A DNA stretch of 64,000 bases from Cucumis sativus. Its lineage: Eukaryota; Streptophyta; Magnoliopsida; Cucurbitales; Cucurbitaceae. The notes beneath the pieces were generated by a model, which searched no databases, was not told the DNA's origin, and worked only from the letters and a program-made list of their open reading frames with translations. Below, piece after piece: positions 7,707-60,371 of this stretch. Every line of letters begins with the position of its first letter. The stretch's first letter is position 1. The stretch spans positions 2,914,001 through 2,978,000 of the forward strand of contig NC_026659.2 of assembly GCF_000004075.3 (NCBI RefSeq), written 5' to 3'. Made by a program: the position numbers and the translations under genes.

Positions 7707-10328
7707 ATGAATAAACTATTGCAGCGTTTTTCTCTATACGTAATGAGAGAAGTCTTTAGGATTTCAATAAGTAATAAAATAAATTGGACAAAAGTATGTC
7801 TTATTGGTGCCATTTTGACTGTTGGAGGCATTGCCCTTCAAGTGTTGATACTTCCTTATCCATTGCACACATGGTTCGTTTCTCGACCAGCAACAGTTAT
7901 ATTATATGAATCCATGGAGGAAACCATGGAATTAAATGAAACCCACAAGAATAGTACAGAAAGGGTCCCATTGATACTGTTGAACTCTGTTGTCCTGCAA
8001 AATGCTACAGATCAAATGGTTCAACTTGTTTCAGTGAATCAGGAGAGAGAGACATCTCCTAAAAAAAGAAAATCATCTAGAAGAAGGAAGCATACCAAAT
8101 TGAAAGAGAAGCCAATTATTCTAACTCCTCCTCCTCCACCTAGGAGACCACCCTCTGCATTGGAGGTATGGCAATTTGGAATTTTATTTCCTTTTGTTTT
8201 AATGATAAAGAGTAAAGTTATTGTAATATTCTGATGACCATGTTATGTATATGTAATCCAGAGGCATGTTTGGTCCTTGAAGCCTGTGGAAGCACTTGCT
8301 TATGCAAAGGAGGAGCTTAAGCATGCTCCAACAGTAATAGATGATGCTGATCTGTATGCCCCTTTGTTCTTGAATGTATCTATCTTCAAAAGGTATTTGC
8401 ATCATCAGTACCTCTATTTTAACTTAAATTTGTAAATGAGATTATATAAGTTAAGTATTTTATGATGTCAGAATCTCTTTTACTTTCTATGGTGGTGGGA
8501 GTCAGCTCATGCAAGAAATATTTGAAAAAACAGATAAATAGCGATTAGTATACCATATGGAAAGAGTTGGGAAGCCAGCATCTAAGTTCTAGGAAGCATG
8601 TATGATTCGCAGAGGGAGAAGAATGTTTCCAATAAAGTCCGCTTACTACATTTTTTTTTTATACATGATAATCCTCTGGATTTTGTCTAATTCCTTATAC
8701 ATGCCATTCCCCTTTTCGGTACTCGTAATCAACTTGTTGGTGATATATAATTAAATTTACCTTCAACCACTAGCTTAAGCTTTTGGATGAATTGGTGGTT
8801 TAATATGGTATCAGAGCAGGTGGTCTAGGGAGGTCCTGTGTTCAAGCCACTGCATTGTTGTTTCCTCCCCAATTAAAATCAATTTCCACTTGTTGGGCCT
8901 TTCAAAGATTTCAAACCCAAAAGTGAGGTAAAATTGATTCCACTTGTTGGGCATTTCAAATCTTTCAAGCCCACAAGTGAGGGGAGTGTTGGTGATATAT
9001 AATTAAATTTGCCTTCAACCACTAGCTTAAGCTTTTGGATGAATTGGTGGTTTAATACAACTAACTCCTTTATATTTCCCCAAAATGTCAGGAGTTATGA
9101 ACTGATGGAACTGATACTCAAAGTTTACATATACCGAGATGGATCTAGACCTATCTTTCACACTCCCCATCTGAGGGGAATTTATGCTTCTGAAGGGTGG
9201 TTTATGAAGCTGATGGAGGAAAACAGGCAGTTTGTCACCAAAGACCCAGAAAAGGCGCACTTATTTTATCTTGCATATAGTTCTCGTCAGCTGCAGACGG
9301 CTCTTTATGTGCCTGATTCTCACAACATGAAACCATTGTCAATATACCTGAGGGACCATGTGAATTGGATTGCTGGAAAGTATCCATATTGGAACCGCAC
9401 ACACGGCTACGATCATTTCCTTGTTGCTTGTCATGACTGGGTGAGAAGCCTATTTCTTCATCTCAGATTTCTTTGAGTGTATTAAATCACCAATTGACCC
9501 AAAAGCCTACATTTACCGATGAGTTATTATATTTAATTATATCAGCACTTAAACAGACTGGCAACTGGCAGAGATTGCTGAAGCCACTACTCTTATGGTT
9601 AACCATTTTCTTTCTTTTGATGTGTCACAAACTTTCTGCAGGGCCCCTATACTGTCAATGAACATAGAGAACTTAGCCAACACACCATAAAGGCTTTATG
9701 CAATGCTGATCTCTCAGAAGGGGTTTTCAAACTTGGGAAGGATGTTTCCTTGCCAGAAACTACTATAAGGACACCAAGGAAACCACTTAGGAATGTTGGT
9801 GGGAAAAGGGTATCACAGCGGCCAATTCTTGCTTTCTTTGCTGGGAACATGCATGGGAGAGTCCGTCCAATACTTCTGAAGCATTGGAATGACAAAGATG
9901 ATGATATTAGAGTTTATGGACCTTTGCCACTGAGAGTCTCCCGTAAGATGACATATATACAACATATGAAGTCAAGCAAATACTGCATATGTCCAATGGG
10001 ATACGAAGTGAACAGCCCAAGGATAATTGAAGCCATTTACTATGAATGTGTCCCGGTAATTATTGCTGATAATTTTGTGCTTCCTTTTAGTGAGTTTCTT
10101 GATTGGAGTGCATTCTCTGTGGTAGTGGCTGAAAAGGATATTCCCAAGTTGAAGGAGATTCTAACGGCTATCCCATTGAAGAGATATCTTACAATGCAGA
10201 TAAATGTGAAGATGGTTCAGAAACACTTTCTTTGGAACCCAAAACCCCTTAAGTATGATTTGTTTCACATGGTTCTGCACTCAATTTGGTTTAGTAGACT
10301 GAATCTGTTTCCAATCCCTCGGACATAA
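7707..10328 (+). CDS. GT47 (exostosin-family) glycosyltransferase, four coding exons, 541 aa
   Basis: Exons: 7707-8165, 8262-8392, 9092-9440 and 9642-10328, all with GT-AG borders and in frame. The product is a type II Golgi membrane protein. A short basic N-terminus is followed by one transmembrane segment at about residues 30-52, then a variable stem rich in Lys/Arg and Pro (110-150), then the exostosin-like GT47 domain (about 200-520). Recognisable GT47 stretches include SYELMELILKVYIY, FFAGNMHGRVRP, and the donor-site region SSKYCICPMGYEVNSPRIIE followed by YYECVPVIIADNFVLPF. It resembles the 'probable glycosyltransferase At5g03795/At3g07620' group, which probably builds cell-wall polysaccharides; donor and acceptor are not known. 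Intron 2 (8393-9091) carries a complete miniature LTR element. The gene converges with the ACX1 gene downstream. Confidence 0.9.
8735..9057 (+). mobile_element. Complete TRIM/SMART-type miniature LTR retroelement, 323 bp
   Basis: Two 71-bp direct repeats (8735-8805 and 8987-9057) differ at a single base and start TGTTGG. The internal part is 181 bp. Immediately after the 5' repeat is TGGTATCAGAGC (8806-8817), the primer-binding site complementary to the 3' end of initiator tRNA-Met. Immediately before the 3' repeat is the purine tract AAGTGAGGGGAG (8975-8986). The element is flanked by the 5-bp target duplication CAACT (8730-8734 and 9058-9062). The repeats end in ATA instead of the usual CA. 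It has no coding capacity, so it depended on enzymes from another element. Inside there is an imperfect direct repeat (about 8886-8930 and 8940-8984). Confidence 0.93.
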
Positions 10329-45200: not shown

Positions 45201-48200
45201 TCCTCCCTTCTTATTTTCTTTCGTTTTATTTGGTTATTCAAGAAACAATCAAATCTAAAGTATTGTATCTTTTAATTTTTTGTTTCGAAATTGTTAAAAT
45301 ATTTGTCTATTTGTTATATTTTTGAAAAAACTTCGATAAGAACATTCGCTCTTGGTTGAATTGTCACACTTGAATTTGAGGAAATTCTTTGCCATTTATG
45401 ATATTTTCTCTATTTTTTAAAAATATATTTTTCATAAATGCTCATTTTTATTAAATGTTTGTTCTCAATTTTTTTCTTCCCATTTTATCCTTGAAATTAA
45501 GATCGAATTAAATATAACATTGTTTATATGTTTGACAATATGTGAAAGGAAAGATCAAACCTTTTAACTTCGAAATCGATAATATAAATTTTATATCAAT
45601 TGTACTATACTCATTTTAATAAGTAAACATCATTTTTTTTTACATTAAAAAAAGTTAACACAATTTGCAAACTTGTAAAATCATGCCTACAATGACTTTC
45701 AATAGGTTTAGGATTATTTACGTTGAAATTTATAGTTTAACTATTATATTTAAAATCGTGGGTTTGAGATTTGTTTGACCACTCATACTTTTAATTCATG
45801 CTCGTCTTGTATTTGGACAAGTGTCTTTCTTAATTGGTTAAAAACTCATATGGTATTACACGACGTTTGCAAAAATAACAATTTTTTTTACGATAATAGA
45901 ATTCATTAAAAAACCGATAACTCTATGATAACCCTTTGATATTATACTATTGTTTTTCTTTAGGAAAAGACACGAATAACTCTATTGATTTTCATTGTAT
46001 TATTGTTGGAGTCGAGAAGAAAGAGATGGAAGATTTGGGTCATTAATTTTTTTTTTAGGTAAAGACTACATTAATTACCTAATGTAAAGCTGTCCATCAA
46101 AATAGGGTTTTAAATGAGGTAAGGAAATTGTTTGATTCCGTTCCTTTAAGAAAAGAAAAACCATAAGATTTGGGAAAATGCCATAAATTGGAGAGGTAAA
46201 AATGATATAGAAAGTTTATGGAAAATGAAATTTGATAAATATGGAAGAAAAAAGAGTAGATTACAACTAGAAAATGTGCAGATAATGAAATTAATGGAGA
46301 GGAAATGTGGATTTTGAAAATTTTCTCCATTGAGAATGGTAAATATTTTATCACCTAATATAGAAATCGAGCATTGAAGTATTTTAATACATGTTATACG
46401 TAATCGGTGTGTTTGGTTTCATTTTGAAAACAAAGATTACATACTCAAAAGACTCAAAAAAAGTTGAAGTGGACGATAACCATGTCTAGCAACGGCCTCT
46501 AGTTTATAGTGAATTCTAGTCGACTTCGACTGTCAATGCTACCAACGACTATCTCAAATGTTATACTCTAGAGATATACTTTCAATCAACTACAACCACC
46601 AACAACCAACTCTAATTCCTAATTATAGTAACCAATCAAATCGACCATACAATGAAGCAAACGAAAATAGTCACTATAAGTGATTTTTTTTAATTGAAAA
46701 ATTGCCGAAAGTGATAAATTTAAAATAAGATATTTAATGAATCGCATTTTTTTTTTCTGTTTTTGCCAATGTGACCTTTTTTTAGTGTATAAAAGTTTAT
46801 CAAGTATATATCAATATCGAATGCTTACTTTATTCTTTTTTATATTTGATAGAATGAATATGCTTTTTTTTTATATTTGATAGAATGAATATGCTTTTTC
46901 TTTTGCAATTTTTTCAAAAGTAATAAGTTTGAGTGATGAATCTAATTTTTAAAACATAATATATTTGCCAAATTTAGGAAATATTCTCAACTGTATCACA
47001 ATGGCAAAATATACTTTTTATTTTTTATTTGTTTATATTTAACTATATTTACAAATAAGTTTGATATTTTTCAGAATATATTGAAAAGGGGCAAGGTGTT
47101 TAAATAAAAATGAAAAATTTTCCTTAGGAAAATTCAAACATGCCCACCTATTAGGCAATAACTACAAACTTGCCACATGCAACTAATAATAGGAAAAATA
47201 ATTTAACTTAATAACTAAGGAGAGAGAAACTTAATAAATTATGGAGTAAACTTTACTTACCCTAAAATAAATCCAAAATATTAACAAAATTTGATAAATA
47301 TGCAACTAATTTTGTTTGATATATTTTTTGTGTGTGATATTTTGGTTGAAATCATTAATTAAATTGAAAATTCCACCCTCATAGTTTTAGAAAAGTCCAT
47401 AAACTTTGATATTTACATAATTATGTTTCATGAGCTGTTTAGGTACACTATAATACCCCTATTGAATGTATCTCCCCATATTTAATGCAAATTGATTTTT
47501 TTTTTATTATAGGTAGACAATCAAACATTTACATATTAATTTCCATTATTTCTAAAAATATTTATAGATATTACAAAATTATAAAATTACTTGCATCTTT
47601 TTCTAATTTTACTATATATATAAATAAACAATTTTCTAATTCTAAATTTCGATGAATTTAGGATCACTCTCTAGTATGTCAGAAAAAGAATATATAATTA
47701 TAGATTTTTGGTCTTTGAGTATCAAAATTTATGTCTATAAAGTTTTAAATTCTTTAAAATTCACTGATATATTAAAATTAAATTAAAAGGAAAGAATTTA
47801 TTTGACAAACTTTAGATTTAGATTTATCTCTAAATAGATCTATTAATTTGATAAAAATTTAAATTTGTACCAAATCTATTAAACACAAATTTGAAAGAAT
47901 ACTTTTAATACATATATTGTTTTTTAAAACACATGACATTGCATTGACAGTTGTTGATTTCTTCAAATTTAAGTTTCAATTATAAATCTCTTGAACTGAC
48001 ATAATGATCATCATTGTAGAATTTAATAATAAAATTAAAAAAATAAAAAATAAATTGTCCTTCAAAAAGAAAAAAAAAAGGTTACCACAAATTGATTAAT
48101 TGGAAAACAAGGAATTGAAAAAAAATATTTTTTACTATATAAAAGTATAGTATTTGAGGGTTGAAGGTATTTTGATTGAATTCTTAAAATTGTTATCTCC

Positions 48201-48208
48201 CTCTAAGG
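42261..48208. other. Gene-poor region downstream of the DUF1639 gene
   Basis: The first 1.7 kb (to about 44,060) is less AT-rich and may include long 3' untranslated sequence or a decayed gene, but no frame or family could be supported. It contains a GT/GGTT simple repeat (43,808-43,850). From 44.1 kb on the DNA is AT-rich, with a 'tagtctatcaatgataaagtctac' type block near 44.16 kb (a style of word common in cucurbit repeats), a partial copy of the AT-rich repeat family near 45.86-45.96 kb, and a tandem duplication at 46.83 kb. No gene seen. Confidence 0.45.
46833..46894. repeat. 31-bp tandem duplication
   Basis: A unit ending 'tatatttgatagaatgaata' plus TGC occurs twice head to tail (46833-46863 and 46864-46894), nearly identical. 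It is recent, non-coding slippage or a duplication. Confidence 0.7.
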
Positions 48209-51200
48209 CTAAGCTAAACTCAAAGAAACATTGTTTGTTTTAATTTGTAAATCAAATTGAGAAGGTTGATGATGTTCCTCCTCCAAATAAGGCACAATGT
48301 ACTTCTTTGCATCACTATAAGATATTCCAAGATGACCTCCTGCAACTTTTATGAATTTCACTCTTCCACCTTCATCTAAGCTTCTCAATCCGATCCAATC
48401 CTCAATGTACAGCTTCGTCTGCACGAAAACAAGTTGAGACAATTTCAAGACGGGTCACCCTCATATAAGAAATGACAGTCTATGTTAATCCATATTCACA
48501 TGATCACATTCCATAGAAAAGAAAAGGTAAAAGGAAAGTTAGTTAGAGGTCGTTTCGAGGTTTTCAACAAACTCAAACTGCCCGAAAGCTGATTTGGAAG
48601 AGTTTGACGAACCAAAGTCTCCCTACCTTTCGATAAGTTTCATTGTCAGACAGCGTCAAACGACCAAATACTAAATATCCCCAAACATGATACCGTTATT
48701 ATAGGGATGTAGTTAATCTAATAACAATCTCTCAGTGCTTTTAGGATTTATCTAAAGATGTTAGGATGTCTCATTTGTTATTGCCAAGACACTACAATGT
48801 TACCGTGCCTGATATGTGTGCGTGTATGTATGTACGTGTGTGCGCTATGTTACAGTACCTAAAATGTGGATTGCTAAAAAACAATGGGTTCTCCGTCTTA
48901 AAAAAGGCTTGTGCAATCTCAAGGATATTGTGAAGTGTAAACAATCATTTGGTCAACAAGTACCTGTTGTGGGGGTAAAATGGGTTCAAACTCTCCATCC
49001 GGGTAGTATCCGAACCAGGACGTTTCCTTTGGAACCAGAACAGTGTCATCCTCGAACTGTTAGAAAGCAAAAGACAGCAACTTGTTTTATCCTTAATAAT
49101 ATATGGAAAACAATAACTCCGCAAATTTACACAAGCTTCTCCATAAGCCAAACTTACCATGATTAGTACCAAGTTCTTTAAGCTGCTAAATCGTTCCTTG
49201 TAAGTGGAGTTTCTGGCATCGGGACGTTCATTATTGAGTTTCGGGAGAAATTTACAGTGCTCCAAATAGTCAGGAATATCCTGGAAAAAGAAAAACAGAG
49301 AAGGATCCTTGTGGACTTGGAGATGTAATGAAACCATATCTGATTAGAAATAAACACTACTCACATTTGGTAATTTAATAAAACCACTGGGAGCCAAAGA
49401 ATTCTGCAAGACCATTACATAATAAGAGAAGAGGAAGTCAGTTATGATTAGAACAACCAAGCTATATAGAACACAAAGAAGCGGACTTCGACCTGTTGAT
49501 AGGTTACACAAAATCATAGAGTTTAAGGAAGCTTGGAGATGGCGACATACTTGTACAACATCTGAGTAGATAGCTAACTTCAAAAGGTCGTCTGCAAGTA
49601 GGCACCAAATACCAGACTGCAAATATATATATATATATATATATATTCAAGGCCTTTTTCAGTAAAAGAAAATATAACCATCTATATTTGAAATGATGAT
49701 AGATGCTAAAGCAAGTGCAGTTCTTACACCACAAAGTGGAACAGAGGATATGCCAGCATGAGGACCGCCCAAAGAAATAAAATTCTGAACCTATTTCCAT
49801 GTGCAGAGAAGTAACAAGTAAGAGTCATTTATGGAAATGGCAACCATGCTGATAAACATAAATAAAATCAAAGTAGTTACTCACTGGAGGAGCACCATCG
49901 CAAAACTCCACAACTGCTCGACCAATTAAGTTACCCTATTAAAAGAAGCTTAGATTAACTCCCAGAAGGAATTTAATTTGAGAAAACAGAGAGAACAAGA
50001 GATGATTTATTTAATCTTTACTGCTTTATGAGAAATGAAAGGGAGAAAAAGGAAAGAACAGGGGAAAACAATCGGACAAGCAACAAACTTCAGTGAAGGA
50101 TAATATCCCGAATATTCGAAGACAGCAAGCAGTAGAACACAAAAACGTCAAGTTCGAAATCCATACTTAAAAGTATCATTATTCATTATACTACGAGTTC
50201 AAAATGAGAAAAAAGTTATGTTGAAACAAAGTCTTGAGTTAAACTAAAGTTCTCAAGTCCTTATGAATCACCTGGGAGAGACCAACAAAATTGAAACCCT
50301 CTTTTAGATCCTTCATTTTCTTCACCTGTAGTCATAATAACGAACTAGTTGCAAGTTAACATAGATGTCAGAATCCTATTGAGGCAAAAAACCAGCTGGA
50401 GATCTATACCACCTTGTTGCAAACAATTTGAGACTGCAGAACAGAAAACAGAAACATCACAACTCGAATCATGTCTTAGTATCAAGATGATCGAATCATA
50501 TTATTCATTATCTAACCTGCGCCTCAAGTGTCATAAACCATGAATCCCACCCCCCATTGCCAATTTCTCTGTAGGAGGATGAATTAAGCTATGTCAATGG
50601 TCACATAGATTCTGTAGAGGAAAAACTTTGAGAAAAGAAAACTATCTAGACAAGTCGAAGATACAACAGGGACATTCAGAAATCAATAAGATTAAAGAAA
50701 AAAAAAATTCCCCAACTTGGGTTGACTTCAAGGAGCTTAATCAATCATGAGACAAATCTAATGACAAGTTAACATAAACATGTTAATGGTGATTGTATAG
50801 TATAAAAAACTTTTTTGCTTATTGCAAATAATAAAGGCCGGCCATCAATTTAAAATGTGTTTTATGCGTTATGTCCTTTCATTTCCTCATATTATGACCA
50901 AGATTAAACAGCGCAAAAGAACTGAAACTGAAAAAGAAATCAATTACATAAAGTTCCTTTAATCAAACTAATGAGGCAAGAGGTGTGGTTTTAAGCATCA
51001 TTGAAGCAATTCAACCTCAAGTTCGACCTGAAATCCCACTCTTGCTCCTCTATCAGATGGAGGGGGGAGGCCCTTCCATTAGACAAAAGAGCAATCGTAA
51101 GTGGCCTCATTGAGGTCGAGGCACACCTACTACAAGTATGCAAACAATGGCATTTTACATGAAAAATGGACAAACCAGTCATACAACCACAGTTGACGCA

Positions 51201-51903
51201 AAAAACGATGTAAAGAAAATGGATACAGGTCTTCAAAAAGAGGCATACATGCAGTATCCTTTAGCACCAGAATTATCACTCAAGTACTTAGTAAATTTCT
51301 TCATGCCTTTATTTGAACATTTATCTCCAATGCCTGCAACAGAGAGAAAATATCAACTCAGAACACAACAGACCACTTCAAATCTAGTCTAAAAACCAAG
51401 AAATGGCTCCAAATGAACCCTGAGCTTCATTGCAACTCCAATTGAATAAACTTCGTGAAAACAGCTGAATAAATATCAAGAACAACAAATCAAGAAGTGG
51501 GAAAAGTGTAAAACATAAGTTCACAAAAAAAAAAAAAAACATTTAAAACACATGGGAAAAAGCGTCCCAAAGATTAAACAGCTCAATTAAGAACCGTGAT
51601 TCCCAGAAAAACAAACTTCACCATCCAAGCATCCGCTGCAAATACCCTTTTGACTAAAACAAGGATCATTCATACCAAACAATCAATTTCTTTATCCAAC
51701 AAGTTCAAACAGTAAAATCTAAACACACCCAGTTGACTATAAACCCAAATAATTATTCAGATACAGAAACATACATTTAAAATTCAAAGGAAAGGAAAAA
51801 GATACATACCATGGAGTACAATGAAGGGTAAGGAATGAGAAATTGGGATGATTATGATGACGAAAACGAAGAAGGAGAAGATGGGCAGTGAGGAAAACCC
51901 CAT
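48209..51903 (-). CDS. Palmitoyl-protein thioesterase-family protein, 12 exons, 316 aa
   Basis: Exons in transcription order: 51903-51810, 51333-51249, 50568-50517, 50433-50413, 50325-50272, 49935-49885, 49790-49728, 49616-49551, 49403-49365, 49280-49158, 49056-48964 and 48418-48209; all joins keep frame. The enzyme family removes palmitate from S-acylated proteins in lysosome/vacuole or the secretory route. Seen: an N-terminal signal peptide (residues 1-25, hydrophobic FFVFVIIIIPI), the HG loop, Cys-rich GDKCSN, and the nucleophile motif GLSQGN (Ser). Also seen are SLGGPHAG, NSTYKERFSSLKNLVL, the FEDDTVLVP Asp region, and GGHLGIS with the likely catalytic His. Exon 4 is only 21 bp (SQIVCNK). 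An AT microsatellite abuts the exon 8 acceptor. A decayed copy follows at 53.2-55.2 kb. The Ser, Asp and His candidates are all present, so it is probably active. Confidence 0.9.
49623..49646. repeat. (AT)n microsatellite next to a splice acceptor
   Basis: About twelve AT units lie within 7 bp of the exon 8 acceptor (TTTGCAG, exon begins at 49616) of the thioesterase gene, replacing the usual pyrimidine tract. Length variation here could alter splicing. Confidence 0.85.
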
Positions 51904-52129
51904 AAGTTGCAGAGTGGAACAAGAATTTCCAGAAAGAAGAAGATAGGTAATATTATGGATTTCCCTCGCACAACATTGGTTGTTGAGAGATTAAAATATT
52001 ACAATCAAAATTTCCCCTCCGTCCCCAAAAATTCCTTACAACTACTATTATTTGTTTCGTGGAGATGGATCTTGATCATTCTCCCGGGGTGGAAAATCAA
52101 ACTCATAGTTTTTGGGCAAGAAAATATTG

Positions 52130-52350
52130 AAGCCCAAGAGAAGATGTGGGTGGTCTTGAAACAAGTATCAATTATTTGGGCCTTGAAATCTTGGATTACT
52201 CGAAGGATATATGTTCATACTGTTTCTCTATTAGTCTTGAAATGTTTCCTTCATTCTCTTGAGATATGAAAGGGGATTCCTTAATGGTTAAATTCTGAGA
52301 CCTTCCTTCTTCCTTCATAGAATGGAAAATCGAAGGACGCTCGTGTTTGA
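52130..52350 (-). pseudogene. Decayed PAH (Sin3-like) ORF, copy A
   Basis: This stretch is homologous to the intact PAH ORF at 55304-55531: both share 'gtgggtgg(t/c)cttgaaacaagt' and 'cttgaaatgttt/cgaaatctttccttcactct' in order. On the minus strand, pieces such as RMKETFQD and IQDFKAQIID can still be read, but with in-frame stops and a frame change between them. It is a dead copy lying just upstream of the intact thioesterase gene, in the same relative position as PAH copy B to the dead thioesterase. Confidence 0.75.
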
Positions 52351-53110
52351 AACCAATGTATAAACTTTAAACTTAGGCCATTTTGGATGCTGATGAATCA
52401 ATAGTAATTTAAAAACGTAAATTTTGAGTTATTATCTTTCGTATCGTGTTGTTTTCTGCATGATATATGAAATTTAAATTCAAATCCGTAAACAAAAGTC
52501 TCAATTTGATTGACGAGCTAAACGTGATCAATCTGATTGCGCTCGAAAATTACGTCTTGCTTACTGTTTGGGTTTGGATTTGAGCAATGGTTACACTTTT
52601 TAGGGGTAAGCTCCATTTTGAACTTTTTACCCTCGCGAATGCATTTGAAAAATTGAACTATGATTGCATTTAGATAAAAATTTTATATATTACTATTGAT
52701 AAAAGGGTATTTTATATAATATTTCTATTGCGATTGAGATTACATTTAGATAAATACAATTCAATTACATTTGCAGGTGCAGTCCATTACGATTAATCTA
52801 TCAATCAAATTTAATTACGATCACAACAATTGTTTGAATTTTATTTGATGCTTTTGGATATTTAGTATATATTTAATAGAATCAAAACGGTACAATTTTT
52901 TTTTTATATATATATATTTTTTATGTTTTAAACTATATTAAATAAATACAAGAACATTTAAAAACGTAGTATGTAATGTAATAAACTAAATCATTTTGAA
53001 AAATTAAAATAGACAATAAATCCAAAATTCAAAATATCCATCCCAGAGTCTCAATAGCAATATAGAGTAGCTTAAAAAAAAGAAGAGATTGAAAAAAAAT
53101 ATTGTTTTGA
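52351..53110. other. AT-rich spacer between the two duplicated blocks
   Basis: No gene. It contains a run of T followed by TATATATATATAT near 52.9 kb and generic AT-rich sequence. Recognisable homology to copy A restarts at about 53,110. Confidence 0.5.
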
Positions 53111-53214
53111 CACCAATTGTATAAAAGTATAATATTAAACACATACAAATGGAAAGAAGAGTTGGGTTGAAGGTGTTTGATTGCAGCTTTGAAATGACTC
53201 TCTCCTCTAAGATC

Positions 53215-55152
53215 AACTCAAAGAAACATTTCAAATTGAGAAGATCGATGCTCCTCTCCTCCAAATAAGGCACAATAATGTACTTTTTTGCGTCACTATA
53301 AGATATTCCAAGATGACCTCATGCAACTTCTATAAATTTCACTCTTCCATCTTCATCTAAGCTTCTCAATTTGATCCAATCCAATCCTCGTATGCACGAA
53401 AATAAGTCGGTCAGTTGAAAGTTAATCCATACTCATACAATCTTGTTCCACAGGAAAGAAAAAGCTAAAAGGAAAGTTTGCTAAAGACAGAGAGAGTCTT
53501 GAGGTTTTTCAAGGAACTCGAATGGACTTTGGTAACAAGACATTCATAATTCCTTCGTAAGGCTACAAGCTAATCTAAATAACAGCCTCATTAGTGCTTT
53601 TAGGATTTTGTAATGAAACCGAGATCCAGAGATGTTATGTCGTATGTGTTTGCCAACATAATACAATGTTACCGTGCCTAATTAGTGCATGTATGTGCAT
53701 GTTTCTCCAATGCTATGGAACCAACAAATGCTTGTGCAAATCTCAAGGATATTCAATTGGTCAACAAGTACCTGCTGTGGGGGTAAACAAGTTCAAACTA
53801 TTCATCCAGCTAATATTCGGACCAGAACAGCATCATCCTCAAAATGTTAGAAAGTGAAAGACAGGTAACTTCGTTTATCCACGATATAACCTATAAGGAA
53901 AACAATAAAAATGAGAAAAAAATTATACTGAAACGAAGTCTTGAGTTTAAACTAAAGTGCTCAAGTCCTCGTGAATCACCTGGGAGAGACCAACAAAATT
54001 GAAGTTCTTTTTTAGATCCTTCGTTTTCTTCACCTGTAGCGATAATATTGAACTAGATGCAAATCAACATAGACGTCGGAATCCCATTGAGGCAAAGACC
54101 AGCTGGAGATCTATATCATCTTGTTGCAAACATCTGAAATACAGAACAGAAAACAAACAGAAACGTCACTACTTGAAACACGTCTTAGTCTCAAGATATT
54201 AAACCACCAATTCATCCAAAAGCTTAAGCCAGTGGTTGAAGACAAATTTAATTATATATCACCAACACAAGATAATTGAATCATATTATTACTCGTTATC
54301 TAGCCTGCTCCTCAAGAGTCATCAACTATGAATACCATCCCCCATTGCCAATTTATCGGTAGGAAGATGGATTAAGCAATATAAATTGCTCAAAAAGATT
54401 ATGTAATAAAACAAATTTGGGAAAAGTATCTAGACAAGGTGAAAGACCCAATAGGGCCATTCAGAAATGAATCCGATTCTTTTTTTTTAAAAAAGAAACA
54501 ATTAGAGAGCTTGGTTTGATCTCAAGGAGCTGAATCAATCATGAGAGCAATCTTAGGACAAGTTAATATGAACATGTTTATATCATGGAATACTTTGCTG
54601 CTTATTGCAAATAATAAATGTTGGCCATCTATTGAAAAGGAGTTTTATGCCCTTTCTTTTCTTCAAATAACATAAAGAACAATGTATGTCAACAGACCAC
54701 TTCAAAACTAGTCTAAAAGCCTAAGCAACATTGCAACTCAAATTGAACAAACTCGATGAAACCAACTGAAAAGACCATAAAGAAAAACAAATCAAGAAGT
54801 GGGTAATGCGTCTCAAAGATTCCTCCCAATAACTAACTTAAACCAAGAAAGTAATTCCCAGAAAACAAACTTCAACATCCAAGCATTCCTTGAGAATACC
54901 ATTTTGACAAAAACAACAAACAATCGATTTCTTCATCCAACAAGTTCAAACAGTTGAATCTAAACACACCCAATTGACAATGACGCAAAGAATTCATCAG
55001 ATACAAACACCTACACTTCAATTTTTTTAAAATAAAAAAGAGAAGAAAAAAAAAATACCGTGGAGTACAGTGAAGGGTAAGGAACAAGAAATTGGGATGA
55101 TTTTGAAGACGAAAACGGAGAAGAAGAAGACGGGCAGTGTGGAAAACGCCAT
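53215..55152 (-). pseudogene. Palmitoyl-protein thioesterase pseudogene (copy B)
   Basis: A shortened tandem copy of the 48.2-51.9 kb gene. Exon 1 (55152-55059) is the same length (94 bp) as in the parent and still encodes MAFSTLPVFFFSVFVF and its HG end. Exon 2 is missing. Exons 3 (about 54325-54365) and 4 (about 54108-54135) are mutated at their borders. Exon 5 (about 53982-54035) is near-intact. Exons 6-10 are absent as one deletion between about 53,870 and 53,900. Exon 11 (about 53770-53855) has lost about 23 bp. Exon 12 (about 53215-53400) has lost its acceptor and the start of the exon, and the Gly codon two before the catalytic His has become TGA. A 71-bp solo LTR sits in the intron after exon 3. 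It cannot give a working enzyme. Confidence 0.88.
54197..54267 (-). mobile_element. Solo LTR (71 bp) of the miniature LTR family
   Basis: The reverse complement matches the LTRs at 8735 and 8987 over the full 71 bp with few differences. It is flanked by the 5-bp direct repeat CAAGA (54192-54196 and 54268-54272). In the parental thioesterase gene the homologous position (about 50481-50520) has a single 'tatcaagatgatcgaatcat', that is, the empty site. The insertion therefore happened after the block duplication. Only one LTR remains, as expected after unequal recombination between the two LTRs. Confidence 0.92.
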
Positions 55153-55303
55153 AAGTTGCAGAGCGAAAAAGGAATTTGCAGAAAGAAGAAGATCGCACGC
55201 ACAATATTGGTTGTTGAGAGATTAAAATATTACAATAATAATTTTCCCTTCGTCCCTAAAATTACAACATTGAGGTCCAAGTTTCAAGAATGATCTCAAG
55301 TGA

Positions 55304-55531
55304 TTACTTGGTGGGCAGGAAACTAAGGAATTCCCAAATAAGATCTGGGTGGCCTTGAAACAAGTTCGCTACTGTTGCACAGAGTTCCATAACATCAATT
55401 CTTTGGTTCCTGAAATCTTTGACAGTTTGAAGGAAACGTTCATACTTTTCTCTGTTTCCTCGAAATCTTTCCTTCACTCTCAAAATAAATGATATGGCGT
55501 TCCCCATGGTTATCTTTCGGCTTCTCGCCAT
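55304..55531 (-). CDS. Single PAH (paired amphipathic helix, Sin3-like) mini-protein, 75 aa
   Basis: The frame encodes one complete PAH domain: VKERFRGNREKYERFLQTVK, then DFRNQRIDVMELCATVANLF, then QGHPDLIWEFLSFLPTK. In Sin3 co-repressors such domains bind transcription factors; full Sin3-like proteins have three and are over 1000 residues. Here there is a single domain and no histone-deacetylase-interaction region. I chose the ATG at 55531 (MARSRKITMGN), since it aligns with the start of PAH domains; the open frame extends to 55624. It is intronless, whereas PAH domains of full-length plant genes are interrupted by introns as I recall. Short PAH-only genes also exist in Arabidopsis. Whether it is expressed is unknown; it could act as a competitor of Sin3. 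A dead copy lies at 52.1-52.35 kb. Confidence 0.65.
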   Translation of the reverse strand: MARSRKITMGNAISFILRVKERFRGNREKYERFLQTVKDFRNQRIDVMELCATVANLFQGHPDLIWEFLSFLPTK

Positions 55532-56341
55532 TGAATGGAAATCAAAGAAAACGTTTGAGTTTCGAGCCCGTATGAACTCATTACATAGGTCTTGGTTTGA
55601 TGAACACACCCACCAAAAAGACAAAAAAAGTGATAAATTTTTAAATCGTAGTTTTTTTGTTTCTTTAATAAATTTACTTCCATTTGCATTTTTTAAAATA
55701 TATAATGATTGGATTTTTAGTTAAATTAAAAAACAAAACAAGAATTTTATTTTTTAAAAATGTTTTTTATTTTCAAATTTTAGATTGGTTTTTATACCAT
55801 TAAAAGGATACCACAAATGAAAGAAATTTGATATTTAGTCCTTTGAACTTTAAAAAACTGTCACCGAACTATCAGTTTTATAGGGATCTTTGAGTGTCCC
55901 TCACTAATTGATATTGTTATTGAGTTACATTTGTAAATATTTTCATCAGTTTTGTCATTTAAAACAATGATCCAAAAAAGTAGTTTAGAAATATTTTTTA
56001 AACCAATGGCTATGTTTTAAAAAAACTAAAGAATCAAAGTCATAGTAAACATAGCCGTTAGTTTAAAAAATATTTTCAAACTATCATTGAAATAAAAATT
56101 ACTTAAGAATATTGGATAGTAATCAGGAATTGGAATTGAGTTTCTTGACGAGCTTAAAAAAATGAAGTGATATCTTGTAATACATCGTTGTCATATCATT
56201 AAAAGATCACCGATGACTTAAAATGTATGAAACCTAAAGACCCAAATGAGTATTAAACTTAAAGCTTATGAATAAATCTATAACATTTCAAAACATAGAA
56301 ACTAAACGAAAAATTGACTCCAAACTTAAGGACCGAAAAGT
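55532..56341. other. AT-rich intergenic region
   Basis: Between the PAH ORF and the 3' end of the DC1 gene. It contains a repeated 'aacta(t/a)...gtttaaaaaatattt' theme in both orientations (55,990-56,090), suggesting an old inverted repeat. No gene seen. Confidence 0.4.
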
Positions 56342-58682
56342 TTAAAGGAATCCATCGGTTACAAATGTGACATCCTCCATAGCCAAAGCTTCGATGCTAC
56401 ACTTTTCTCTTAAACTCAAAAGCTTTTCTTGTTCTTCACAAAGATTTTCAAGTTTCATTCTTTGTTCTTTAATCCTCTCTTCTCTTTCATCAACCAACTC
56501 TTGAGCTATATCTTTTGCTTTAACACCAAAGAAAGCCATTGCTATCTTCTTCCATCCTTCAAATGCAAACTTCATTTCAAAACCAATTAGTTCAATTGAT
56601 CTTATCCCAATCATCCATGAAACTAGATCATCTCCTCTCATGTTCTCGAACTTCGTTCTTGACATGTCGTCCATCACTTTGCAAAATAAATTCCAAACGA
56701 TTGTCCTCACTTTTATTCCAAAATTCGTGCCCTCTACAAAATTTTATCGATAATATGTCATATATAATACATATATTTTCTTCTAGAGAATTATCGTAAA
56801 TGAAAAAAAATTGTTGAATATTTATCAAGTATATCAAAATTTCATAACTTAATAGACTTCTATTACTTATATGATCAGTTAAAAGATAGATTAAAGTTGA
56901 AATAACACGAATAAAATAGGATGTTAACTGATCATGAAGAAAAAAGATTTAACTTGAATACTATCTTGAGTTTTTTTTTCAAAATATCTATCAACATTAA
57001 CATTTTAACGATAACATTACCTGAGATATCACCGTATTTCGTAAAAACTTTAGTGAAAACTCCCGCCCATTTCTCTAAAACCAAATACCCTCCGTCGACG
57101 AGAACCGTCGGAGAATCTCTATCAAAATCTTGAAAAGGGTTGGCATCTTCAAGTTCGAGTTTGTCAATGAGATGGTAAAGGGGTTTCTCAAGATACGAAA
57201 AATAGTGGGAATGTTTGTCTGCAGAATTGGCTTCATTTTCGGTCTCGTCATTGTCGTCATCACCACCACCATAGGCTTTCTCCATTGCATCTACAAGTCT
57301 TTGATATTCAACATCGTCAGATTCGGAGAAAGAATCGAGGATCTGCTGTAGGGTTACTCCAGGTTTTAGTATACTTTCATGGCTTCCTTCTTCATCCAAA
57401 CTATGTTCGTCGTTATCCAATGATAATGTATAAAGTTGGGTTGATATTGATGATGCTTCTTCTCCTTCTTTTTCACTTGGAGTCTGTAGAAAAAAACTAG
57501 AGTGTGATGATGATTTTGTTTTTAACTACTGATTTCTTTGTTTTATTCTCCACCACTAATGTTTTAAAAAACACAGGCAAAGTTTCTAAAAACAAAGTTA
57601 CGATCTACCGTAGTGTTGTTAGCTTTCAAGAACTTGTTTTTTTCTGTTTCTATTGCAATTTAACTGTGTTCAAAGTAAGGATGAAAACTATGATTTTAAT
57701 GGGGATATAAAACAAAAATATCTAAAAAACCAAAAGTTATGTTTTTGTAATTCACAAAAACCAACCCAAAGTTTCGAGAATCTAATTTTTTTAAAAAAAA
57801 CTTTTTATTTTTAAAACTTAATTAGGAGTTAAAGTAACACTGTATTTAAAAAATTGAAATAAATCAAGCACAAATTTCAAAAACAAAAAAGTAAAAACAA
57901 AATCATTGTCAAATTACTTTCTAAGAATTAGTTGTCAAATTATCATTTGAAATTTCAAAAACAAAAAATGAAACTGAAAACGCCCCAAACGTAAGATTCT
58001 TCAAAAACTAAAATGAACTTGAAAGAATTTTAGAGATCTTAATTGAAAAGGCAGAAAAAGAGGACGAACGATGACGCACCTGAAGGTCATAGATGACACA
58101 GCCAACATGAGCAAGGAATGGACAAATATTACAACAATAGAACCACGCCTCTCCATCTCTTTCTTCTCCACAAACCCCACACAAATTATTATAACCAACA
58201 ACCATGGAAAGCACAATGGGATGATTATGGTGACTATGCGCTTCAATGAGGGGCGGAAGACAACACTGAACATGAAGAAATGCATCACAATGAACGCATC
58301 GGACGAAACTAAGGTCACTAATTCCTTCATCACACACACCGCAAATCAAATGCTTGTGATCGGATTTTCTGTCGAGAAGAAGAAGGGGGTGGGGATGGTT
58401 GTTGACCGTGATGAGCGGTAGGGCAGCGCAGGAGGCCGAGAGGGAGAAAGGGCATGCGAGGCAGTGGAAGGAAGGCCCACCGGGGGTGGAGGTGAAGCAG
58501 GCGGCACAGTGGAAGAAACCAGTGGAGCGAAAGAGGAGGCCGGAAATCGAGGGATCGGAGAAGTCTTGTAAAGAGATCATGAAGTGGCGCTGGAGAGTGT
58601 CGACGGAGTTTATGAAGGCTAGAGGGTGGTTTTGAGGGTGGTGGAGACGGTGCGCCGCCTGGAGTTGGAGTCTGTTTGCCAT
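56342..58682 (-). CDS. DC1 zinc-finger protein with a C-terminal helical domain, three exons, 485 aa
   Basis: Exons: 58682-58080, 57483-57021 and 56733-56342, joined in frame (CTTCAG|ACTCC; a Gly/Glu codon split at the second join). The N-terminal 200 residues carry Cys/His-rich DC1 repeats: HPLAFINSV, FHCAACFTS, FHCLACPFSLSASCAALP, HPHPL, CGVCDEG, FVRCVHCDAFLHVQCCLPP, CGVCGEERDGEAWFYC. These are zinc-binding modules related to C1 domains, often in stress- or hormone-related plant proteins. Then comes an acidic linker (GGGDDDNDETE), a segment VFTKVFTKYGDIS, a helical region and a coiled coil rich in Glu/Lys (DEREERIKEQRMKLENLCEE). The C-terminal part resembles domains downstream of DC1 or in PEARLI4-like plant proteins, but the match is weak. 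Start: the first ATG giving MANRLQLQ; the frame extends further up without better sense. Function unknown. Confidence 0.75.
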
Positions 58683-60371
58683 GTTCCGGGCGTACGTACG
58701 TCGTCGGTGTGATCTGAACTTATTGGAATTTTGAATAGTAATCCTAATTGATGGAGGAAAGCTCAAAGGAATACGTTTTTATGTTAATTGGGATTATAAC
58801 ATTTTAAAGACAAATTTGTAAATTATTAATTAATGGTCTTTTTTTTTTTTTGAAAAAGTCTTCAATTGTAAATAAAGCAAAAGAAGTTTTCTTCTCCCAC
58901 TATCCATCTCTTATTATAAATAAATAAATTTGGTATTTTTAATTAACAAGTCAACTATATATATAGATATATATATAGAGGGATCAAAATGCTATTTATT
59001 TTTATAATAATTGAATAAATTTAAAAAGAATGTGGTTCCATATCATGAAAGATTATTATTAAAAAGCCACTTGGAAAGTTAGAATATGAAAAGGATAAAG
59101 GAAGACCAAATAATTAAAACCTATAGTCAAAGTCTTCGAGGGATGAGTTATTTTCAGGTTTAATTGCACATGTAATCTTCATCCCTATGGCTTTCTAATT
59201 TCAAACTAAACTACAAATGTGGTCATCAAATTAAAGTCAGTCATTCAAACACACTATTTTTTATTTATTATTTTCCTAATTTTTGGATTTTATTATTAAT
59301 TAAAACTTAATAAAATAATAATCAAAATTAAACTATCAACTTTCATAACTAAATCAATTTATATTATTTGTTAGCGAAGAAAGTAAAAAATTATAGTATA
59401 AACTAAGTTCCATTATCAACTTGGAAGCCTATGTTTAGAAAAGAAAGCTCAAGATATACATGCGATGGATTCATGTGATTTATTTTACCTCTTCTTTCCA
59501 AATTTAAAATTTATATTTTTATTTACATGATTAAAATTATTTTTTTCTTCAAAGGATTAAAATTCTATTGCTAATTTTTTTGTTTCGTTCAGCTACTTTT
59601 TATCAATATTTTAAAAAATGATGGCAAGCTTTAAAAAAGTAGTTTTGTTTTACCAAGTAAAATGTCATCCATTGTGAGAAATTGAGGAAAATCTACGTTT
59701 ATAACTCTCAAAAACTAAAAACAAAAAATAATTAAAATGATTTCCAAAGGGTTCTAAGTTGTTGTTACCAATCAATTGAATAAAAAAGCAAAGTGCAAAC
59801 TTACCCTTAAAGTACCGTGGTATTGCAATCCAGTCACACTCATCCTCGTATTAGAAAATCATCTCATCCGTTGTGGTCGAGGTTCCATTCCTCTTAGTTT
59901 TGTAGGTGCTCATTCTCTCAGGTCTCTCGAGGCAACAATAATAGAACGAAATAGATCATACTCACATAACCTATTCCCCTTCGCCTTCTTTGAAAAGAGA
60001 GAATGAAAAGATCATGAAAGAAAGAAATGAAATTGTAATTTTACACTCAAACTTTCTATAATAAAAATTGAGCCATCAAACTTATACAAATATTAAAATT
60101 CGATATTTAAATAATTGTATAAATTGTAATGATGGTATAAGTTTGAGAGTTCAATTTCTATCATCATCAGAGGGTCCAATTAATTCTACATCAAGTATAT
60201 GTTTAGTTATCCAAATTTTGACACACGTGTTTACGTTGGAAGAATCAAGTTTTACCATTAAACAGAAGTTCGAGTGTTTCATATATTTTAGGGATAGTTT
60301 TTATCGTTAGAAAAAAACTGTAAAGTTAACTATAGACGAGAATAATGAACAAGAGACCAATTTATTTAGAA
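58683..60371. other. AT-rich intergenic region
   Basis: Promoter side of the upstream DC1 gene and 3' side of the next. The pair CGTACGTACG near 58,692-58,701 is a short palindromic simple repeat. There is an AT microsatellite near 58,955-58,978. The stretch 59.8-60.0 kb has higher complexity but no supported frame. No gene seen. Confidence 0.45.

Follow-up and report, generated by a model that had tools for sequence, protein, structure and literature searches.

We analyzed a 64,000-nucleotide stretch of the Cucumis sativus genome (C5:2,914,001-2,978,000; hereafter, the window), in which a tandemly duplicated block carries a gene for palmitoyl-protein thioesterase (PPT) and, upstream of it, a reading frame for a paired-amphipathic-helix (PAH) domain. 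By sequence comparison, this frame is PAH domain 1 (PAH1) of SIN3, from a SIN3-like (SNL) gene, and the PAH piece is an RNA-derived partial copy of SNL20 that was inserted upstream of PPT, probably ahead of the block duplication. In copy A of the block, PPT is intact, and the PAH piece (PAH-A) decayed neutrally, as judged from its substitutions. In copy B, PPT is broken, and the PAH piece (PAH-B) has retained an open frame. From its sequence and its predicted structure, we lean toward the view that PAH-B is a miniprotein of recent origin that consists of a PAH domain alone and is subject to changing selection, and we favor this over the chance survival of a dead copy.

Origin of the PAH pieces

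The two block copies and the PAH pieces within them occupy the following positions.

~48,110-52,375, minus strand: block copy A, PAH retrocopy followed by the PPT gene (global alignment and self-BLAST; ends approximate)
~53,084-55,600, minus strand: block copy B (global alignment and self-BLAST; ends approximate)
52,060-52,365, minus strand: PAH retrocopy A, with four frameshifting indels and an exon-1 remnant at its 5′ end (alignment to spliced SNL)
55,304-55,593, minus strand: PAH retrocopy B, with an exon-1 remnant at ~55,533-55,593
55,304-55,531, minus strand: open frame of PAH-B, a predicted 75-amino-acid single-PAH protein (PF02671, AlphaFold2, Foldseek)

In the genome searched (226.6 Mb, 88 contigs), two SIN3-like genes were found, both on C5, namely, SNL19 at 20.6 Mb and SNL20 at 26.01 Mb; the comparison covered the PAH end of each. 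Among the best candidates scored, there were no SNL-like loci or retrocopies beyond these two genes and the window pair. A DNA search with the PAH-B stretch matched only PAH-B itself and, having missed even copy A, may equally have passed over other diverged copies.

In both SNL19 and SNL20, an intron splits PAH1 at CAA-AG|A-ATT, between ...AAGGCCCAAAG and AATTGATACT. At the corresponding site of the window copies, this intron is exactly absent: B reads ...AACCAAAGAATTGATGTT and A reads ...AAGGCCCAAATAATTGATACT, the intronless junction being exact in B and one base different in A. Precise absence of parental introns is what identifies a retrocopy, and it was found here for the PAH1 intron. Just upstream, A and B each carry a remnant resembling SNL exon 1 (a weak similarity, matched in each case by 1 of 1,000 shuffles). 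Because this similarity adjoins the PAH piece in both copies, the exon-1 intron seems to be absent from them too. The absence of the SNL PAH1 intron from both copies argues that the PAH piece was RNA derived and was later duplicated together with PPT, and since the copies also share changes, insertion probably preceded the duplication. Kimura two-parameter (K2P) distances are smaller to SNL20 than to SNL19 for both A (0.238 versus 0.390) and B (0.411 versus 0.548).

Compared with the SNL parent, PAH-A has frame-breaking shifts of +1, +2, +2, and -28, and its resemblance to SNL continues past the PAH domain, to ~52,060. PAH-B runs from an ATG at 55,531 to a TAA ending at 55,304. Its start is an internal Met of the parent (...PQMAGAG...), and its stop replaces the parent's Tyr codon after FLPK. 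Several PAH domains together with a histone deacetylase (HDAC)-interaction region characterize SIN3 and SNL proteins; PAH-B does not have this architecture, as it ends right after PAH1.

These results modify an earlier note on this DNA, made from the letters alone, which had treated the PAH frame as an ordinary second gene. It is instead a retrocopy, lacking introns, that covers a segment of a SIN3-like gene. The note rightly saw a broken PAH frame in copy A, where four frameshifts separate it from the SNL parent. The PAH of copy B, described there as intact, is indeed an open frame of 75 amino acids, but "intact" covers one PAH domain only. Likewise, the two block copies keep different open frames, as had been claimed, but the one kept in copy B is a SIN3 retrocopy and not an ordinary gene.

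Fold and evolution of the open PAH frame

PAH-B matches the Pfam PAH family PF02671 at 56-57 bits (cutoff, 21.3) over the complete profile (1-45 of 45), and a sequence search of the PDB returned SIN3 chains. AlphaFold2, run from the sequence alone, predicted four helices with a mean predicted local distance difference test score (pLDDT) of 83.2. When this model was submitted to Foldseek, SIN3 PAH domains were retrieved, the three best rows having query TM scores (TMq) of 0.77-0.82. The Pfam cutoff of PAH_ZNF598 is likewise exceeded by PAH-B (29.5 versus 25 bits); the parental SNL PAH1 domains score below it (22.1 and 23.9) and the inferred A/B ancestor just above it (25.4).

As A and B are of equal age and share one starting sequence, PAH-A can be used as a built-in neutral control for PAH-B, which is rare among retrocopies. 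In the rate tests, SNL20 was the outgroup and A the sister of B. Over the PAH stretch (210 nucleotides [nt] of B), no frameshifting indel has occurred in B, versus four in A, relative to SNL20; ahead of this stretch, B has an in-frame 9-nt deletion. Elsewhere in the block, indels are dense enough to predict ~2.5 frameshifts on the B branch (P = 0.08 for none). Depending on the ancestor used, the probability that the B frame acquired no stop under neutral substitution is 0.125 or 0.247.

Lineage-specific changes are more numerous in B than in A (33 versus 17; binomial P = 0.033). By codon position 1, 2, and 3, they amount to 13/49, 15/51, and 5/45 in B and to 7/43, 5/41, and 5/45 in A. Positions 1 and 2 taken together thus differ from position 3 in B (28/100 versus 5/45; two-sided Fisher test, P = 0.03), with P = 0.79 for the same test in A. 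In a neutral null with intron run lengths, so few position-3 changes arose in 1.3% of simulations (P = 0.013). In a codon model, the ratio of nonsynonymous to synonymous rates (omega) was 0.08 for SNL and 0.82-1.02 for A where freed, that is, about 1, as for a neutrally decaying sequence. For B, omega was 2.92 with equal branch times (likelihood ratio test [LRT], 12.2; P of about 0.0005 by chi-square) and 3.85 with free times (LRT, 5.38; reached by 5 of 160 bootstraps, of which 2 had an omega of >1). A constraint like that on SNL was rejected for PAH-B (LRT, 38.8); therefore, the old function has not simply been kept. Across models, omega of PAH-B is about 2-4, with P from ~0.0005 to 0.09, so that faster-than-neutral change is suggested but not proven.

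The changes in PAH-B have in part a direction. At 8 positions, versus 1.6 expected, its replacements led to the residue found in PAH2 of SNL20 (1/3,000; 0/2,000), and with a conservative ancestor, 5 such gains remain versus 1.2 expected (0.6% and 0.45%). Comparison with human and yeast PAH1 revealed no such gain (0-1). Gains toward yeast PAH2 numbered 4 (P = 0.07) or 1, and those toward PAH1 of SNL19 numbered 3 (P = 0.03) or 2. Two further PAH2-like residues, Q and P, must be older than the A/B split, because they are common to both copies. The ten PAH2-matching positions use the same codon as PAH2 in five cases (TTT, GAA, CAA, CCA, and GAA) and a different one in five. Because half of them use another codon, gene conversion from an SNL PAH2 is not clearly indicated as the source; short tracts are possible.

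The principal alternative is that the two PAH pieces are both dead; a processed pseudogene would have been duplicated along with PPT, and B would be open over 75 codons by chance. We regard this as less probable than a young miniprotein, yet serious. With probabilities of 0.125-0.25 for the lack of a stop and 0.08 for the lack of a frameshift, one of two copies may have stayed open by luck. The piece contains only one PAH domain of SNL, and there is no evident parental promoter. Changed amino acids are as numerous as expected under neutrality (33 per 52 nt changes and 22 per 34; as many or more in 55% and 75% of neutral simulants, respectively), and the excess in omega may stem from multinucleotide events, which inflate it and make up 9 of 22 events in B versus 2 of 14 in A. 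What argues against a dead copy is that codon position 3 has changed too little in comparison with positions 1 and 2, that the PAH fold is confidently modeled, and that none of 60 neutral simulants matched the Pfam PAH family at an E value of ≤1e-14, as PAH-B does. In addition, the score of PAH-B with a small hidden Markov model (HMM) of PAH1 and PAH2 was reached by 0 of 2,000 or by 0.45% of neutral simulants.

The last two results, and several of those above, have a reverse side that speaks against selection on PAH-B, as does the count of amino acids and multinucleotide events just given. At a looser Pfam cutoff of 1e-10, 8 of 60 neutral simulants match as well. The PAH1-PAH2 HMM includes PAH2 of SNL20 and so depends on the PAH2 comparison, which was itself picked after the resemblance had been noticed. 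With a PAH1-only HMM, 3.3% or 17% of simulants reach the PAH-B score, and 1.75% or 11% do so with an HMM built only from human and yeast PAH1. The hydrophobic core is kept at 21 of 22 positions, which is weak when taken alone (P = 0.05 or 0.16). Counted by events, the rate difference between B (22) and A (14) is not significant (P = 0.24), and the parsimony ratio of nonsynonymous to synonymous changes on the B branch is only 2.0-2.1 (P = 0.066 and 0.056). When the ten codons wholly or partly missing in A were left out, the LRT fell to 6.8 with a clock (P of about 0.009; omega of B, 2.3) and to 2.83 without one (P of about 0.09; omega of B, 2.8). A short overlapping upstream frame starts at an ATG ahead of the PAH-B start. 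Around the retrocopy, which is 3′ truncated and old, neither a poly-A tract nor a target-site duplication was seen by eye. Finally, the evidence on PAH-B comes from the DNA sequence of one Cucumis sativus assembly and a predicted structure.

Proposed history and known systems

In both block copies, a segment of a spliced SNL mRNA, comprising the last part of exon 1 and the complete PAH1, stands without introns just upstream of PPT. In the history that we propose, it arose by reverse transcription and insertion, and the PAH piece was duplicated in tandem with PPT, probably in this order. Copy A kept PPT intact, and its PAH piece decayed neutrally. In copy B, PPT was destroyed, and its PAH piece has stayed open as a single-domain frame of 75 amino acids. 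Selection would hold the four-helix PAH fold open, and the sequence of PAH-B would shift faster than neutral, partly toward PAH2 of SNL20. As its most likely mode of action, the putative PAH-B protein would bind transcription factor peptides whose usual docking sites are the PAH domains of SNL. Having no HDAC-binding part of SIN3, it would compete with SNL-HDAC recruitment as a microprotein. VAL1-CW is a published partner of SNL PAH domains (PMC9266683). A more ambitious reading would make it a stand-alone 75-amino-acid gene whose binding surface is being rebuilt by positive selection toward PAH2, with its twin as a neutral clock, and whose product is a putative SIN3-ligand decoy tuning histone deacetylase-dependent repression in Cucumis. 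Judged on the sequence data, this is rather unlikely.

PAH-B shares with PAH1 of the plant SNL co-repressors the same 63-residue register and, by model, the same fold, SNL20 being the nearest relative found. It differs from SNL genes in that both window copies have no PAH1 intron and that PAH-B has no PAH2, PAH3, or HDAC-interaction part. As in plant retrogenes and processed pseudogenes, an intron is precisely absent, the location is new, the parent is kept, and the copy is partial. Unlike them, this retrocopy was later duplicated with an unrelated host gene, which yielded one neutral and one open twin, and inspection by eye showed neither an A-tail nor a target-site duplication. MicroProteins are single-domain competitors of larger complexes; PAH-B, known here from its sequence, resembles them in being a single interaction domain derived from a multidomain hub. 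Short PAH-only genes are annotated in Arabidopsis and code for small proteins with a PAH domain only, a description that PAH-B also fits. In the collection of papers searched, none combined microprotein, SIN3, and PAH, and nothing concerned this locus.

Reciprocal gene loss, or divergent resolution, is usually described between populations or genomes and for one gene pair. The window locus is similar in that each tandem copy lost a different frame, but here the losses lie within one array and concern two unrelated frames. If PAH-B is a real gene, it would illustrate the release and retuning of a single domain from a co-repressor hub, and conversion between PAH classes could be tested. If it is dead, it would be a clean case of an open retrocopy frame mistaken for a retained gene, which is a common annotation trap.

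The duplicated block, its thioesterase genes, and neighboring features

Self-BLAST of the window yielded two same-strand collinear pieces with 68-86% identity, introns and 5′-flank DNA included, and in a global alignment, block B starts ~4,975 bp from block A. Both flanks (3′ and 5′), parts of introns 1-5 and 11, and the PAH stretch are homologous between the copies; as the homology extends beyond the exons, it indicates a block duplication. Collinear introns and flanks, a common strand, and adjacency, the marks of a tandem segmental duplication, are all present. Elsewhere in the genome, the block matched only the last exon of a PPT gene on C3. K2P distances between A and B are 0.12-0.24 per segment in introns and flanks and reach 0.277 in the PAH stretch, the most divergent part of the block. 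Introns and flanks differ at 209 of 1,245 sites (~17%), and 62 indel events have occurred in 1,916 aligned bp. The dicot substitution rate is ~6.5e-9 to 7e-9, from which the sequence divergence dates the duplication to roughly 13-15 million years ago. Given this divergence and age, the duplication is old and probably fixed, and the haplotype consequences that the earlier note had considered are unlikely.

That the pair is an assembly artifact or a product of collapsed haplotypes, and not a real tandem duplication, is very improbable. No sign supports it: the window contains no N and lies within one 31.9-Mb contig, the ~17% difference and the 62 indels are far beyond the allelic level, and copy B has its own 72-bp insert.

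The thioesterase genes and this insert are located as follows.

48,209-51,903, minus strand: intact PPT gene (PPT-A), 12 exons, 316 amino acids (splice sites, PF02089, 3gro, dN/dS)
53,207-55,152, minus strand: PPT pseudogene (PPT-B), lacking exons 2 and 6-10, with a shortened exon 4 and with stops in exons 3, 11, and 12
54,197-54,268, no strand assigned: 72-bp insert in PPT-B, the solo terminal repeat of a tiny long terminal repeat (LTR)-type element (self-BLAST)

All 11 introns of PPT-A are of the GT-AG type, and the spliced frame is open over 951 nt including the stop (316 amino acids). The product matches PF02089 at 265 bits (cutoff, 26.8) over the full profile (1-254 of 254), and its residues 24-298 align with human PPT1 (3gro) with an E value of 1.1e-43. 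We take GLSQG, EDDT, and GGHLG to contain the Ser, Asp, and His of the triad. PPT-A thus resembles human PPT1, from which it differs by its 12 exons and its own signal-like N terminus, and nothing about it is unusual. A second PPT gene lies at C3:2,012,001-2,021,000. Its exons 2-12 are open and have consensus splice sites, so that PPT is not carried by the window locus alone; exon 1 was not found with a simple rule. The two proteins share 70% amino acid identity over 262 codons. Over these codons, exon 1 left out, dN/dS is 0.154 and dS is 1.2, which argues that PPT-A is constrained. No PAH remnant was matched beside this paralogue at C3:2,012,001-2,021,000, and the insertion is therefore either absent from the older paralogue or lost there.

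PPT-B has no counterpart of exons 2 and 6-10. Exon 3 has lost both acceptor and donor and contains two in-frame stops, and exon 4 is 2 nt short and without acceptor. Exon 11 measures 72 nt versus 93 nt in A and has stops, and exon 12 is frameshifted and has a stop when read in the conserved frame. Exons 1 and 5 have remained open.

Much of the earlier description of the block thus stands, including the intact 12-exon PPT in copy A, the broken PPT in copy B, and two collinear same-strand copies that arose by a single block duplication and not by two separate events. In the self-comparison proposed there, the collinear homology extends outside the exons, and an intact PPT or PAH in both copies, which the note had named as contrary evidence, was not observed. 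Order and strand are the same in the two copies, as was claimed, with the correction that both genes are on the minus strand and PAH is upstream of PPT. The statement that neither function was lost fared less well: it was overstated in view of the second PPT gene on C3 and the two intron-bearing SNL genes on C5, and it conflicts with the rejection of SNL-type constraint on PAH-B, whose frame is open but, at an omega of about 2-4, not conserved. That two ordinary genes were each conserved in one copy (reciprocal degeneration, or subfunctionalization by gene, with haplotype consequences) is improbable. The pattern of open frames is exactly as first described, and PPT-A is clearly constrained; against this, the PAH piece is a retrocopy of PAH1 only, PAH-B does not show SNL-like conservation, the PAH stretch is the most divergent of the block, and the basis is a single assembly.

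The 72-bp insert in PPT-B is 97% identical to positions 8986-9057 and 96% identical to positions 8735-8806. Forty-five genome matches were reported, itself included, several of them paired ~200-250 bp apart. Positions 8735-9057 form an element of 323 bp that is bounded by two direct repeats of 72 bp each, presumably a tiny LTR element of the TRIM/SMART type. We take TGGTATCAGAGC to be its tRNA-Met-like primer site, and a purine-rich stretch precedes the second repeat. In PPT-B, the repeat stands alone and is reversed relative to this element, with CAAGA seen by eye on both sides.

On the minus strand, two adjacent open frames at 56,342-57,420 (122 and 161 amino acids scanned) gave no Pfam match at 0.001 and might be exons of one gene. 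A 252-amino-acid open frame at 58,008-58,766 (minus strand) contains C1_2 (DC1-type) zinc finger domains (61 bits). Just upstream of the PAH-B block, at 55,981-56,083, an inverted repeat with 37-nt arms, 89% complementary and 29 nt apart, forms a hairpin like that of a miniature inverted-repeat transposable element.

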